From Nitrospirota bacterium (GTDB lineage Bacteria > Nitrospirota > Thermodesulfovibrionia > Thermodesulfovibrionales > Magnetobacteriaceae): a DNA stretch of 64,000 nt. This document shows, in pieces, positions 34,415 to 63,012 of this stretch; within the stretch, counting starts at the first letter, position 1; the number at the start of each line of letters is the position of its first letter. The stretch is from NCBI GenBank assembly GCA_015233015.1, contig JADFYO010000001.1:62001-126000 (forward strand), in the 5' to 3' direction. A model generated the notes under the pieces. It did not search any database. It had not been told where the DNA came from and saw only the letters and a list, made by a program, of their open reading frames with translations. A program made the position numbers and the translations under genes.

Positions 34415-35794
34415 CTAAAACATAAGTCTGGAGTACAGATAGATCGTGTTATTATGAGAGGCATTCGTACCCAAGCCGTCATAGTCCTTACGGCTGCCGT
34501 TGAATCTATCGTAAGCAATATACTGAGCGCCAATCTTTATGTACTTTATTGGCAGATAGTTTACCTCGAATATGAACCCATCGCTGTTGGGGCTGCCTGT
34601 TTGACTGCCGGTGTACTGGTTGCCGGTGTTATACATAGTGTCGTCGCTGGTGCCGGTTGTATTGAAATAAGCCACGGTTGCCCCAAGCGCGCCAATGGGG
34701 CTTCTATAGACATAATTCACGCTCGCCCTGAATGTGCTCAGTTTGTTAGCCGCGTTTGTAGAACCACCTTCGTCATAAGTAGCGAACAGTCCCTGCCTTT
34801 CGTGAATCCATGTGACCTGAGCGGTAACGATATGAAGCGGGCCGATGTATTGGTACTGCGCATCCAGCCCTATATCGGTAAACCTGTCGGCAGGCCCGTC
34901 AGTAGCACCGGAAAGGTAAATATCAGACACCATTCCATAAGTACCCAGCATAAGAGAGTGCTCCTGTCCGCATTGCTTCTCTATAGCAACGCGCCAGTAC
35001 GGTACCGCGCCTTTCACGACAGTGTTCGTGGCAGCACCGGCGCCAAAAGGTCTTGTAACACCATTGTTGGTAGTGCGGTAGAGACTAAACTCAGCATATA
35101 CCAAATCATTCCATTTGGCATACACACCGGCGCCGCCTACCTGCGTATCCAGGCCGCCATCTATTTTAGTATGCACAGATGGTGTCAGTGCGTTCGTTGA
35201 TTGTTCATAAGGATATTTCCATACTGGAGTAGTCATATAGATATCTGCAATCGACGGCAGGTTATTAACAGTAATTCCCCAAACAAGAGGTGTGCCTGCT
35301 ATCGAGGCTGTGCTGTCGGCATAACGGAGGTCCAGCATATCGAGGGAAACTGACTTTTCTACGCCGTCAAAGGTTCCAACGACAAAAGCCCCGACATTGC
35401 CATAAATCCTGCCTCCATAAAACAGATTAAATTCCTGAGGAATGCTCGCTTTATCGGTACTCTTATGGCCGGCATTGTCAAAAGGAGTTATGCCGTTGGT
35501 CAAATCCGCTCCATCGCCGTTTTGTTTAGCACTGGTATAGGATATTACGGCACCCACCGAGATAGGCGGCAGGGTTTCGTAAGGCGTGCCGGCGGTACTT
35601 TGCGTGAAACCGCCAAGTTTAAAGGCGCGGCCCATAGGGGTTAATTCCGGCCAGATTGTGTGGCAGTTAGTGCAGTTTAATCCTGTCTGGCGTGCAAAAC
35701 TCGGCACGGCATAAGATTTATCGGGGAATAACACAGCCATAACAAACAAGGCCAACAAGGGAAGGAACAATCTATTATATCTTAACAAATTCAT
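34415..35794 (-). CDS. Cyc2-like fused monoheme cytochrome-porin, outer membrane
   Basis: The 459-residue precursor has a signal peptide (1-29), then VPSFARQTGLNCTNCHTIWP with one heme c site (Cys41-His45), and ELTPMGRAFKLGGF. The remaining 380 residues are a beta-rich porin-like part with many Tyr/Gly/Asn alternations, ending in LYSRLMF, where the terminal Phe fits a barrel-assembly signal. This layout is that of Cyc2-type proteins, in which a heme plug inside a barrel moves electrons across the outer membrane, best known for Fe(II) oxidation. Related cytochrome-porins have no proven substrate, so Fe(II) is an inference. A diheme cytochrome gene lies 15 bp upstream. Confidence 0.72.
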   Translation of the reverse strand: MNLLRYNRLFLPLLALFVMAVLFPDKSYAVPSFARQTGLNCTNCHTIWPELTPMGRAFKLGGFTQSTAGTPYETLPPISVGAVISYTSAKQNGDGADLTNGITPFDNAGHKSTDKASIPQEFNLFYGGRIYGNVGAFVVGTFDGVEKSVSLDMLDLRYADSTASIAGTPLVWGITVNNLPSIADIYMTTPVWKYPYEQSTNALTPSVHTKIDGGLDTQVGGAGVYAKWNDLVYAEFSLYRTTNNGVTRPFGAGAATNTVVKGAVPYWRVAIEKQCGQEHSLMLGTYGMVSDIYLSGATDGPADRFTDIGLDAQYQYIGPLHIVTAQVTWIHERQGLFATYDEGGSTNAANKLSTFRASVNYVYRSPIGALGATVAYFNTTGTSDDTMYNTGNQYTGSQTGSPNSDGFIFEVNYLPIKYIKIGAQYIAYDRFNGSRKDYDGLGTNASHNNTIYLYSRLMF

Positions 35795-35809
35795 CTACTC
35801 TCCATAATG

Positions 35810-36586
35810 TTAAAGTTTGCCCATAAGCCTTAGGGTATAGGACACCAGATTCCACCTTTCTTCCTCGGTCAGAGAATCCGCGTATGACGGCATACCAGAA
35901 CCGTTGAGGCCGGTTGTATAGGCAAGATAGGCCTTCTCCGGTTTAAATGTCGCTTTGATGGCGCACGAGGTAAAGTCTAAGACCATGGCCGCATCGCCCC
36001 AGTCGTCCTTTAGCTGATCGCTCTTAGGCCCATCGCCTTTGCCTTCCTTGCCGTGGCACTCCCAACACTTCATCTTTTCCCATAACAGCTGCCCCTTGGC
36101 CGCAGATTCGGGGGTGAGCGTATAGGCCGGCATACTTACCGCGATTGACGCACAGGAACTGTCATTGGGATTTTCTTTCCAAACAGACGAAAATGTCTTG
36201 ATATAATTTATGAGATCCATGATTTCAGCACTGGAGAGGTCCGCGTTAGAAGGCATATAAGCCTTAGGAATACCCTTTGAGATAATCTCGATAAGGTCAT
36301 CGTCGGTTGGCAGACAGCCGGTTGGTGTGGTGCGAAACTTAAATGTAGCGGTTGTCAGGTCTCTTGGTTTGACAGTCCTCAGCTTACTGAACATTAAGCA
36401 ACGTGGAAGCGTGCTTACGTGGCCTTCCCCATCACCTTTGACGCCGTGGCATATCAAACAACGTTCCTCGTAGATTTTTTTACCGCTGTCATCCGTATAA
36501 GCCTTCGACGATATGCCGACAGCAATGAACACCAACAAAATAAAACAACTAACAAATACTGCTTTCCGATGTTTATACGTAACCAT
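35810..36586 (-). CDS. Diheme class-I-type cytochrome c, periplasmic
   Basis: The 258-residue precursor has an N-terminal membrane signal (about 9-27), then two cytochrome c domains. Heme sites are CLICHGVKGDGEG (Cys43-His47) and CWECHGKEGKGDG (about residue 172). Likely distal Met ligands are in KAYMPSNADLSS and GSGMPSYADSLT. Two successive cytochrome folds of about 100 residues suit a periplasmic shuttle. It precedes the Cyc2-like gene by 15 bp, so the pair probably forms one electron path from the cell surface to the inner membrane or the reverse. Confidence 0.9.
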   Translation of the reverse strand: MVTYKHRKAVFVSCFILLVFIAVGISSKAYTDDSGKKIYEERCLICHGVKGDGEGHVSTLPRCLMFSKLRTVKPRDLTTATFKFRTTPTGCLPTDDDLIEIISKGIPKAYMPSNADLSSAEIMDLINYIKTFSSVWKENPNDSSCASIAVSMPAYTLTPESAAKGQLLWEKMKCWECHGKEGKGDGPKSDQLKDDWGDAAMVLDFTSCAIKATFKPEKAYLAYTTGLNGSGMPSYADSLTEEERWNLVSYTLRLMGKL

Positions 36587-36610
36587 ACCTAAATCTTTCT
36601 CCTTTCATAT

Positions 36611-36634
36611 TCAATAATTATATATTATTATTGA
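36611..36634. repeat. A/T-rich inverted repeat between kinase and cytochrome genes
   Basis: TCAATAAT (36611-36618) and ATTATTGA (36627-36634) form perfect 8-bp arms around an A/T loop. It lies in the 56 bp between the kinase stop (36643) and the diheme cytochrome start (36586), on the upstream side of the cytochromes. It could be an operator or a weak terminator; sequence alone does not decide. Confidence 0.4.
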
Positions 36635-36642
36635 AGAACACG

Positions 36643-38619
36643 CTATATTTCTATCATGAACTCTGCCCCGCCGGTTATGTTTCGCACCGAAAGCCTTCCG
36701 CCCATGTTGTTTTCTATTATCGTCTTAGACATGTAAAGACCAATGCCCGTGCCCTTGTCATCGGGCTTGGTCGTAAAGTAAGAATCGAAGATCCTGCCTA
36801 TGACATCGTCAGCAATACCTCCTCCGTTGTCTCTGACATATATGATTACCTTATCATCGCCGTCCTCTGCCGCAGTACCAGCCTTATTTTCGAGACTGAT
36901 TTTTATTTCGCCCTTAGTATTTTTTTCAATCTGTCCCTTTTTGCGGCAGGAGACAATGGCGTCTCTGGCGTTATTGATAATATTTAAAATTACCTGCTTG
37001 AACTCGTTTGGGTAGCCAGTCCTCCGAAATGTCCCTTCTGCGTTTTCTAAGGATATTACAATGGCGTCTTTTTTTAATATCCCCTCAAACATGGACATTA
37101 TCTCCGCTATTGCCGCCTTGATGTCAAAGCGCAGTTTTGCTTTTGATGGTTTAAGGAAATTCCTGAAATCATCGATCGTCTGGGACATAAAATTGATGTT
37201 TTGCATTATTGTCATGATTGCAGTCTTTACGTACTCCTTGTCCATTTCCCCGAATTCGAAGGCGTCTTCAAAATCCTGCACTAACAGGCCGATGGCGTTT
37301 ATTGGCTGCCTCCACTGGTGGGCGATAGCGCCTATCATTTCTCCCATTGCCGCCATGCGAGACTGCTGAACAAGCATCTGCTCCTTAGTTCTGTGTTCGG
37401 AGACCTCTTTTTGCACAAGTTCAAGGAGGTGTTCGTTGATGTCTTCTAACTCGACAGTCTTTAGTTTCAGGGCATTTTCAAGCCGTTTGCGCTCTACCAA
37501 TTCAACGAGCAGCTTCCCGTTTATCTCGTTCATGGCATGGGTTCGCTCATCCACCTTCAACTCAAGTTCCTGTTGGCGCCTGATTAGATTTTTCTTTACC
37601 TTCTTTACTATCAGGATAGTCAGCAGTAAACCTATAACAGACATCACAACTACAATAGAAGCGGCAATCTCCATATTTACAAATACTTTTTTATCTAATC
37701 CCACAATTTCAGAAAGCAGATACACGTTCCAGCCGTTTTCCCGTGCGGAAACCATCTCCGAAACATACCTGACCTCTCGCTGTTCAGTAAGAACGGACGG
37801 GCTCAGGGTGATTATTATAGCGCCGTTGCGAACGGCCTTGCTTTTAACGGGAAGCGGCGTCAGGTCAACATCTACATATTGTTTTTCTTTTTTGATTTCT
37901 GACAAAACACCTTCAGGCAACATTCGCATAGTATAATAGTTAAAGAGATCGTCATTAGATGCAAAAATAACATCGTTTTCATCCGCAAGGAGCAGAGTAC
38001 CCTGTATTTCCTCTGTCCCAAGCTTTAAGCTGTCAAGTTTATTTTTAACTACTGCAACCCCGATTACCGCGCCGTCCTTTCTAATCGGATATGACGCGAA
38101 ATAGCCTGGTTCTTTGTCAACAAGCCCCATTGCAACATATCCCGCCGGTACTCCATTTATTGCCTTTTTATAATAAGGCCTGAAGGCTAAGTTATTACCT
38201 ATAAACGGATTATTGGAGTCCCAGTTGCTTGAAGCAATAACAATGCCCTCCTTATTGAGTATGTACGAGACATTTGCCCCAATTGAGGCATTGAATTGAG
38301 AGAGGTAACTATTAACAACCCTTGCGTCCGTTGAATTGGCACAGAAATTGACTATTAAAGAGTTCTCTGCCAGGATTAAGGGATAACCCGAAAAGTGAGC
38401 AATCTTTTCGGTGAGGTAAACACTGTAGAGTTCGAGGTTTTGTTTGGCTGTTTTTTGAATATCTTCAACGGTCTTATCCTTCGTCCACTCAGCCGTAAAC
38501 CATAACCCAAAAGAACCTACTACTACTATGGTTACAACAAGGATAGTCAGTCCGAATTTGAACCTTGTCTCACCGGCATCGGCAATCCCGTTATCGCTCA
38601 TGATAGTAAAGGCTATCAA
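36643..38619 (-). CDS. Membrane sensor histidine kinase with double-Cache sensor (DctB-like)
   Basis: 658 residues: a transmembrane helix at about 22-45, a periplasmic region to about 310, a second helix at about 315-340, a coiled coil, then the kinase core. The sensor has the double-Cache hallmark of DctB-type sensors: IVIASSNWDSNNPFIGNNLAFRPYYKKAINGV and EPGYFASYPIRKDGAVIGVAVVK, suggesting a small organic acid ligand. The phosphorylated His434 lies in AHQWRQPINAI; ATP-binding motifs are NIINNARDAI, VRDNGGGI and DKGTGIGLYMSK. No response regulator gene is adjacent. The start used is a TTG; an ATG 18 nt downstream is also possible. The two cytochrome genes follow on the same strand. Confidence 0.85.
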   Translation of the reverse strand: MIAFTIMSDNGIADAGETRFKFGLTILVVTIVVVGSFGLWFTAEWTKDKTVEDIQKTAKQNLELYSVYLTEKIAHFSGYPLILAENSLIVNFCANSTDARVVNSYLSQFNASIGANVSYILNKEGIVIASSNWDSNNPFIGNNLAFRPYYKKAINGVPAGYVAMGLVDKEPGYFASYPIRKDGAVIGVAVVKNKLDSLKLGTEEIQGTLLLADENDVIFASNDDLFNYYTMRMLPEGVLSEIKKEKQYVDVDLTPLPVKSKAVRNGAIIITLSPSVLTEQREVRYVSEMVSARENGWNVYLLSEIVGLDKKVFVNMEIAASIVVVMSVIGLLLTILIVKKVKKNLIRRQQELELKVDERTHAMNEINGKLLVELVERKRLENALKLKTVELEDINEHLLELVQKEVSEHRTKEQMLVQQSRMAAMGEMIGAIAHQWRQPINAIGLLVQDFEDAFEFGEMDKEYVKTAIMTIMQNINFMSQTIDDFRNFLKPSKAKLRFDIKAAIAEIMSMFEGILKKDAIVISLENAEGTFRRTGYPNEFKQVILNIINNARDAIVSCRKKGQIEKNTKGEIKISLENKAGTAAEDGDDKVIIYVRDNGGGIADDVIGRIFDSYFTTKPDDKGTGIGLYMSKTIIENNMGGRLSVRNITGGAEFMIEI

Positions 38620-45405: not shown

Positions 45406-45600
45406 AAGAAGATACGAATCATTAAGATATGAATCATTAAGATATGAATCGTTAAGATACGAATCATTAAAATATGAATCGTTAAAATATGAATCGTTAA
45501 GATATGAATCATTAAGATATGAATCGTTAAGATATGAATCATTAAGATATGAATCGTTAAGATATGAATCGTTAAGATATGAATCATTAAGATACGAATC
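45406..45600. repeat. 15-bp minisatellite, 13 units
   Basis: Thirteen head-to-tail units of 15 bp with consensus RTTAAGATATGAATC (gATAC and AATAT variants) lie 13 bp after the stop of the hybrid kinase gene. Because the period is five codons, all frames stay open and minus-strand reading gives a DSYLN repeat, but no coding signal supports it. Unit length and lack of spacers exclude a CRISPR. The array ends at a dispersed element at 45602-45620. Confidence 0.95.
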
Positions 45601-45601
45601 A

Positions 45602-45620
45602 TCCTGAACCTGTCGAAGGA
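45602..45620. repeat. Dispersed TCCTGAACCTGTCGAAGGA element
   Basis: A one-base variant of the element at 25503-25521, placed directly at the end of the 15-bp minisatellite. Its ends TCCT/AGGA are complementary. Both copies in this window sit beside a tandem array, suggesting the element and tandem amplification are connected. Confidence 0.7.
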
Positions 45621-61476: not shown

Positions 61477-63012
61477 CTATTTTACCACGCCATGTATAAG
61501 CGTATTTAACGCGTTCATATCCCCGCCCTTTAATCTGCCCAGTAAACTTGCAACTGTGGCGTCCATAAAACCCGTAAACGCGTTCGGATAGACGCCAATC
61601 CAAAACACGAGTATTAAAAGCGGGACAATGGTTATCACTTCCCTCAGCGAAATATCGCCCAGCCCCGCAATCTTTTCGTTTACTTCCGTGTAGAAGACCT
61701 TTTGATAAAGCCACAGCATATATACCGCCCCTATAATAACCCCCGTTGCGGCCAGTATGCCGGCCATCTTATTCGCCGTAAAACCGCCAAGTATTATCAG
61801 GAACTCACCAACAAAACCATTTGTGCCGGGTAGCCCGACAGAGGCAAACGTAAACACCATAAAGAAGGCCGAAAACACGGGCATAACGTTTGCGAGGCCG
61901 CCGTAGTCGGCGATTTGCCTCGTATGGCTCCTTTCATATACCATACCGACTAACAAAAACAACGCCCCGGTTATCACGCCATGATTTATCATCTGAAGGA
62001 TACCGCCTTCCATACCCTGTGTATTGAGGCTGAATATCCCCAGTGTAACAAAGCCCATGTGGCTTACCGAGCTATACGCGATTAACCTCTTTAAATCTTT
62101 CTGTGAGAGACATATTATGCCGCCATATATTATGGCTATTACGGAGAGAACTATCATCACCGGGGCCACCGTCTGAGAGGCATCGGGAAACATGGGCAGC
62201 GAAAATCTTAGAAACCCGTAAGCCCCCATTTTAATGAGTATGGCCGCAAGTATAACACTGCCAGCGGTAGGAGCCTCAGTGTGAGCATCCGGAAGCCATG
62301 TGTGTACCGGAAACATGGGAACCTTCACGGCAAAGGCGGCGAAAAATGCCCAAAACAACAACATCTGCAGATTCGCGGGAAGCTGCGTGTTCATAAGCCT
62401 GACCATGTCAAACGTCCCTGTAACCAGGTAAATAACAATCACACCCAAAAGCATCAGGACGCTGCCCACCAGGGTATAAAGGAAAAACTTCACCGCCGCA
62501 TAAATCCTGTTCGGCCCGCCCCACATGCCGATAAGCAGGTACATCGGTATCAGCATGGCCTCCCAAAACATGTAAAACAAAAACATATCCAAAGCAGAAA
62601 ACACCCCTATCATCGCCCCTTCTATCAGCAAAATAGCGATATAATACTCCTTCACCTTGTCCTTGACCGAAGTCCAGGACACCAGTACACAAAGTATCGC
62701 AACAAGGGCGGAGAGTAAAACGAATAAGACGCTTATGCCGTCAACTCCAACGCAATAATTTATATGCCATGCCTCTATCCACTGATACTCTGCAACAAAC
62801 TGCATCCTTGCGCTGGTCTTGTCAAAATTCGTAAACAGCGGTATCACAGCGATAAAATTGGCTATTGTAGCAGCAAGGGCAAACCATTTTATAAGCGAAG
62901 CCCGTTCCCTGTTTATCAGGAGCATTGCAAGTGCCGCTAACACGGGCAGAACAATCGCCGTCGTTAACACATATGACTGCTCAAAAAAAGCAGGGCATAC
63001 CGTACTGTTCAT
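61477..63012 (-). CDS. nuoM: NADH-quinone oxidoreductase subunit M
   Basis: A 511-residue antiporter-like membrane subunit with about 14 helices. The key charged positions are visible: Glu in FYMFWEAMLIPMYLLIG, Lys and His in VKVPMFPVHTWLPDAHTEAPTAGS, and the HMGFVTLGIFSLN segment. The order nuoL-nuoM-nuoN matches the end of the standard nuo operon. The start is the ATG at 63012, 22 bp after nuoL. There is nothing unusual in length. Confidence 0.96.
   Translation of the reverse strand: MNSTVCPAFFEQSYVLTTAIVLPVLAALAMLLINRERASLIKWFALAATIANFIAVIPLFTNFDKTSARMQFVAEYQWIEAWHINYCVGVDGISVLFVLLSALVAILCVLVSWTSVKDKVKEYYIAILLIEGAMIGVFSALDMFLFYMFWEAMLIPMYLLIGMWGGPNRIYAAVKFFLYTLVGSVLMLLGVIVIYLVTGTFDMVRLMNTQLPANLQMLLFWAFFAAFAVKVPMFPVHTWLPDAHTEAPTAGSVILAAILIKMGAYGFLRFSLPMFPDASQTVAPVMIVLSVIAIIYGGIICLSQKDLKRLIAYSSVSHMGFVTLGIFSLNTQGMEGGILQMINHGVITGALFLLVGMVYERSHTRQIADYGGLANVMPVFSAFFMVFTFASVGLPGTNGFVGEFLIILGGFTANKMAGILAATGVIIGAVYMLWLYQKVFYTEVNEKIAGLGDISLREVITIVPLLILVFWIGVYPNAFTGFMDATVASLLGRLKGGDMNALNTLIHGVVK

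Follow-up and report, generated by a model that had tools for sequence, protein, structure and literature searches.

Cyc2 proteins are cytochrome-porins of at least 365 residues in which a 16-stranded porin is combined with a heme site that is preceded by an A-x-P-x-FAR[Q/K][T/Y] motif and followed by PxL (Keffer et al. 2021, PMC8406198); the structures named for Cyc2 in that paper are OprO and OprP. In the rus operon, cyc2 is accompanied by cyc1, which provides an electron-carrier partner (PMC10654088), and in iron-oxidizing acidithiobacilli the genes of the redox-responsive RegB/RegA system are clustered with the rus (cyc2) operon in a conserved arrangement (PMC5506826). Two further systems are relevant to the locus described here. 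In Kuenenia, the diheme protein kustc0457 is the partner of the HAO-like kustc0458 (PMC6423088). In P. aeruginosa, relatives of the sensor kinase DctB have been tied to different ligands, MifS to 2-oxoglutarate and AauS to acidic amino acids (PMC8694187).

We analyzed a 64,000-nucleotide stretch of DNA (the window; positions 62,001 to 126,000 of contig JADFYO010000001.1) from a draft Magnetobacteriaceae (Nitrospirota) genome of 3.78 Mb that is 99% complete. Three genes on the minus strand are transcribed in the order sensor kinase, 56 bp, diheme cytochrome, 15 bp, cytochrome-porin, and the open reading frames lie at the positions, on one strand and with the 56-bp spacing, as given by the original prediction. 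The features, in window coordinates, are:

34415–35794, minus strand: probable Cyc2-type fused cytochrome-porin, 459 aa, one CxxCH, predicted 16-stranded barrel, C-terminal Phe
35810–36586, minus strand: diheme class-I cytochrome c, 258 aa, two CxxCH, probably periplasmic, similar to the diheme chain of 6h5l
36610–36635, no strand assigned: AT-only inverted repeat TTCAATAATAATATATAATTATTGAA, 26 bp, near-perfect, in the kinase–diheme gap, overlapping a TATAAT
36643–38601, minus strand: sensor histidine kinase with a DctB-like dCache domain, HisKA and HATPase_c

All three frames have full-length homologues, at identities from 74% down to 31%, and are therefore certainly genes. The kinase frame was listed as 36643–38619 with a TTG start; the ATG at 38601 is the likelier start, and it agrees with the MSDN start of an orthologue. 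The gap between the kinase and diheme genes spans 36587–36642, and the porin gene is preceded by GGAGAG. A glycosyltransferase gene is convergent to the locus and also adjoins the pair in Candidatus Magnetominusculus LBB02, which together with other Magnetobacteriaceae represents the nearest relatives with the same locus. The neighbors of the kinase encode a PhageMetallopep-like protein, an HD-domain regulator, a hybrid kinase and cytochromes. Further along the window, a 15-bp unit forms a tandem array of 12.9 copies (45409–45602, 92% match); it immediately follows the gene of a 1493-aa hybrid kinase, which contains four receiver domains, and precedes an ammonium-transporter-like gene.

The porin starts with a hydrophobic signal peptide, comprising approximately residues 1–29 as read by eye, followed by VPSFARQTGLNCTNCH, and the heme segment, AVPSFARQTGLNCTNCHTIWPEL, comes directly after the signal peptide. 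AVPSFARQT precedes the single, N-terminal heme site CTNCH and PEL follows it, corresponding to the two flanking motifs of Cyc2 proteins, and the length of 459 residues compares with the minimum of 365. In an AlphaFold2 model (pLDDT 78.8), calculated from an alignment of 22 rows, lacking heme and with some loops of low confidence, 16 long strands follow the heme segment. A structure search with this model retrieved OmpF/OmpC-type porins as well as OprO/OprP (VIA Z 21–22 over about 300 residues). Pfam and NCBIfam searches assigned no family to the porin, and a PDB search with its sequence returned chance matches only. Based on the motifs, the length, the 16-strand model and the porin structure matches, we propose that the 459-residue protein is probably a Cyc2-type cytochrome-porin, which would carry its heme covalently at CTNCH and reside in the outer membrane. 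The original prediction had joined one heme c motif to a Cyc2-like barrel and had named structure prediction as a check; the motif is present, and the heme-free model supplies the barrel.

In a tree of 63 rows, the clade of the window porin is set apart from a clade of CHFQHFP-type proteins (support 100/100, branch 2.05). The former has the signature CHTxFPELTPxGRxFKL and the latter CHFQHFPxLNxFGRAFK, which we take to be that of the A. ferrooxidans Cyc2. A profile match between the window porin and the CHFQHFP-type clade extends over 361 columns, across the barrel (E 1.7e-23, probability 99.6). As judged by the tree and the profile match, the clade of the window porin is large and sister to the CHFQHFP-type Cyc2 proteins. 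The original prediction had hung on the barrel not being placed outside Cyc2-type families, and it lies inside the Cyc2 superfamily.

Members of the window clade have a patchy distribution in Proteobacteria and Nitrospirota, and include proteins from Methylocella, Methylocapsa and Roseateles as well as plasmid copies in Methylocystis and Caballeronia. The clade, together with related clades, has matches in 72 of the 300 Burkholderiales genomes sampled. We know of no functional test for the window clade and, in particular, of no member with established Fe(II) oxidation; the organisms that contribute most of its members are not known as iron oxidizers. In the 63-row tree, the Magnetobacteriaceae copies form a single clade with a copy from a different family within the order, the nearest rows to which are one deltaproteobacterial and one gammaproteobacterial sequence. 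The patchy distribution and the presence of a full-length copy in 5 of 19 family genomes suggest a history of transfer or loss of the porin gene. At one locus (L050:7603-10788), a single diheme gene is followed by the Cyc2-type gene in tandem copies, the second being a divergent paralogue (46% to the window porin).

The gene directly upstream of the porin encodes a protein with two CxxCH motifs, in agreement with the diheme periplasmic cytochrome that the original prediction had placed there. By sequence, this protein matches the diheme chain of PDB 6h5l, which we take to be the Kuenenia HAO-like complex, with an E value of 1e-44 over 224 residues. The diheme gene stands directly before cyc2, in the same order, at all six Magnetobacteriaceae loci that contain the pair (window, L048, L049, L050, L051, L052), and its orthologues at these loci are 57–74% identical. 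Many proteobacterial porin homologues likewise adjoin a two-CxxCH cytochrome or a HiPIP, including the homologue on the Caballeronia plasmid. These neighbors indicate that an electron-carrier partner is a constant feature, as in the cyc2-cyc1 arrangement of the rus operon.

We propose with good confidence that the diheme and porin genes form a two-gene Cyc2-type electron-uptake unit of which the kinase is not a dedicated part. We infer the donor, direction and partners of electron flow as follows: (i) 35810–36586 and 34415–35794 would constitute one transcription unit for an outer-membrane electron inlet; (ii) the porin-embedded heme c would accept single electrons from a soluble extracellular donor, with Fe(II) as the leading candidate given the protein family; and (iii) the diheme cytochrome would carry the electrons across the periplasm to a terminal oxidase or another acceptor.

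The nearest Cyc2-type homologues outside Nitrospirota (L035:3595-11272 and L036:4105-11281) end an apparent outer-membrane efflux/heavy-metal RND pump cluster, a possible link to metals. This gene context, the separation from the CHFQHFP-type clade, and the distance of the homologues from the tested Cyc2 proteins, many with a function that has been called unverified (PMC8406198), would all be compatible with a Cyc2-like heme porin that has another substrate or a non-respiratory role, for instance in detoxification of Fe(II) or another metal. Such a role appears unlikely, since the conserved heme segment and the constant periplasmic cytochrome partner point to electron transfer.

For the electron-uptake unit, the direction of flow is illuminated by the gene context of one relative. 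In G009 (L052:780-14004), a kinase and a sigma-54 regulator come first, then the diheme and cyc2, and after these a small protein (its L051 homologue contains a carboxypeptidase-regulatory-like domain), a CydA-like bd oxidase and, finally, c-type cytochromes. A different cytochrome-porin replaces cyc2 ahead of the same type of oxidase and cytochromes in L057:7764-14020, and L056:6724-10755 is similar, such that in these Nitrospirota loci the position ahead of the CydA-like bd oxidase and the several c-type cytochromes is taken by cytochrome-porins of two types; the slot is apparently interchangeable between the two. The position of the pair before a bd-like oxidase in G009 favors inward flow, towards O2. 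The bd-like oxidase of the G009 type is absent from the genome of the window, which has one strong match to a heme-copper oxidase. The reverse arrangement, in which the pair exports electrons and reduces extracellular acceptors, would be in keeping with a lineage that includes anaerobes, and the sequence of a single-heme porin does not reveal which way electrons pass. We nevertheless regard export as improbable: the three Cyc2 proteins tested so far oxidize Fe(II) (PMC8406198), and inward flow is also indicated by the partners (two-heme cytochromes or HiPIPs) and by the nearby bd-like oxidase.

Next to the electron-uptake pair, the sensor domain of the kinase matches PDB 3by9 (4.9e-27) and S. 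meliloti DctB, 3e4o (1e-21), and Pfam dCache_1 scores 44.9 bits at a cut-off of 45. In the alignment, the kinase keeps the S-N-W, FxGxxxAFRxY (as FRPYY) and GVxVxK (as GVAVVK) motifs of DctBs. From these matches, the DctB-like nature of the sensor is beyond doubt, and the original prediction was accurate in placing a kinase of this kind 56 bp from the cytochromes on the same strand. The loop that reads GTVS or GSTS in the two DctBs is GLVD in the window kinase. The Ser that becomes Asp is kept in three orthologues of the kinase and in a paralogue (G000:C72), and further homologues carry S or T there or at a neighboring position. A dicarboxylate ligand is consequently uncertain, and the ligands of MifS and AauS illustrate that a DctB-like sensor need not be a dicarboxylate sensor. 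No response regulator is encoded in the direction of kinase transcription, making the kinase an orphan, and neither a DctD-like sigma-54 regulator beside it nor a dicarboxylate transporter was seen in the neighborhood read. In the paralogue (L087:7185-9242), a DctB-like dCache sensor is fused to PAS-GGDEF, with 65% identity over the N-terminal half, and a homologue at L091:6534-8582 shares only the N-terminal half with the window kinase sensor; these half-matches indicate that the sensor has been shuffled between outputs in the genus. We conclude that the sensor of the kinase is DctB-like and carboxylate-type, and that this class of sensor is both abundant in the genus and freely rearranged there.

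The original prediction went further, treating kinase and cytochromes as a functional unit in which the DctB-like kinase senses a dicarboxylate, controls the diheme–Cyc2 pair and ties organic-acid supply to extracellular electron transfer. The shared strand, the 56-bp spacing, the clear DctB-like character of the sensor and the lack of any detected terminator-like site between the kinase and diheme genes on that strand are in its favor. Moreover, at four of the five loci that could be examined, a kinase or response regulator gene lies immediately upstream of the pair (binomial p ~2e-4, a post hoc value that assumes an 8% background and includes two loci from one genome). The comparison with relatives speaks against it, as the pairing is absent wherever it could be tested. 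In G006, rated 100% complete, a kinase orthologue is present with zero matches to the Cyc2 protein; there (65%) and in G003 (70%), the orthologue adjoins a heavy-metal P-type ATPase. Conversely, G014, G010 and G009 contain the pair, and their best kinase matches cover the catalytic half only or have a different sensor. In LBB02 (G004), the closest relative with the pair, a contig end cuts off the kinase orthologue (64%), and the contig of the pair has no kinase sequence in its 344 nt upstream, which would allow for a wider spacing. The kinase is thus separable from cyc2 in both directions, and the functional unit is not upheld. The regulators beside the pair elsewhere differ in architecture, the conserved DctB loop Ser is Asp in the window kinase, no response regulator accompanies it, and the same sensor type is joined to a GGDEF output elsewhere in the genome. 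Taken together, control of the pair by a dicarboxylate-sensing kinase is very unlikely.

With 129 HATPase_c matches in 3.78 Mb, a kinase is expected next to about one gene in 25–30, and adjacency alone therefore means little. Owing to this density and the lack of conservation in relatives, the kinase–cytochrome adjacency is most likely genome-specific. The kinase may or may not be co-transcribed with the pair, and is probably not part of the conserved cytochrome unit. A variant in which a DctB-like sensor with an altered loop was recruited here, so that a carboxylate-type, possibly not dicarboxylate, signal sets extracellular electron uptake as part of a lineage-wide two-component habit, strikes us as improbable; if true, it would be one instance of Magnetobacteriaceae repeatedly placing different two-component systems beside cytochrome-porins.

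The only conserved linkage that we found lies in the window's genome (G000), G014 and G008, where a kinase and a sigma-54 regulator precede another type of cytochrome-porin, of 500 residues; the regulator ahead of the Cyc2 pair in G009 shares 79% identity with this one. If the window pair has a dedicated regulator, the DctB-like kinase is a weaker candidate for it than this kinase and sigma-54 system, which would act in trans. This second porin type, of about 500 aa with AVPSYSRRYGxDCTVCH, occurs at L061:7848-13670 (G000:C82), L060:3298-10049, L062:3725-8982 and L172:5322-9921, preceded in the three Magnetobacteriaceae by a histidine kinase and an NtrC-type sigma-54 regulator; at L060, the kinase gene appears to be interrupted by an IS-like ORF. 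A Burkholderiales porin of this type (53% identical) has a kinase before it and a sigma-54 regulator at a greater distance. Fold prediction for the L061 porin gave a pLDDT of 41.

A search for sigma-54 promoters upstream of the pair gave a good match in L052 only, 383 nt upstream. The inverted repeat in the kinase–diheme gap had no counterpart ahead of the pair in relatives, and as RNA it folded no better than shuffled sequences; we do not claim it as an operator or terminator.

Finally, we compared the locus with the known systems. The window porin resembles Cyc2 of Acidithiobacillus ferrooxidans and Mariprofundus ferrooxydans PV-1 and Cyt572 of Leptospirillum in its signal peptide, A-x-P-x-FARQT, single CxxCH and PxL, as well as in the predicted 16-strand barrel and the periplasmic c-cytochrome neighbor, and differs from the CHFQHFPxLNxFGRAFK-type Cyc2 by its separate clade and signature. 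The diheme cytochrome is by sequence of the same two-domain class-I type as the 6h5l chain, and is paired with a Cyc2-type porin rather than an octaheme HAO-like enzyme. The kinase shares its dCache sensor and the three motifs with DctB of Sinorhizobium meliloti (3e4o) and Vibrio cholerae (3by9), and departs from both in the GLVD loop and in the lack of an adjacent DctD-like regulator. As with RegB/RegA, a two-component gene is physically clustered with cyc2, but the window kinase is DctB-like and its pairing is not conserved. A sensor kinase beside a cyc2 operon has already been described (PMC5506826), and among the papers listed in our literature search none connected DctB to outer-membrane cytochromes. 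Little is known about the electron donors of magnetotactic Nitrospirota, and the locus provides the family to which they belong with a probable Cyc2-type electron inlet whose diheme partner, resembling 6h5l, is unusual. It also cautions against inferring regulation from gene adjacency where a genome encodes more than 100 histidine kinases. We conclude that the locus represents a Cyc2-type electron-transfer pair; the kind is known, whereas the lineage has been little studied and the diheme partner is unusual, and the adjoining orphan kinase is probably not part of the unit.
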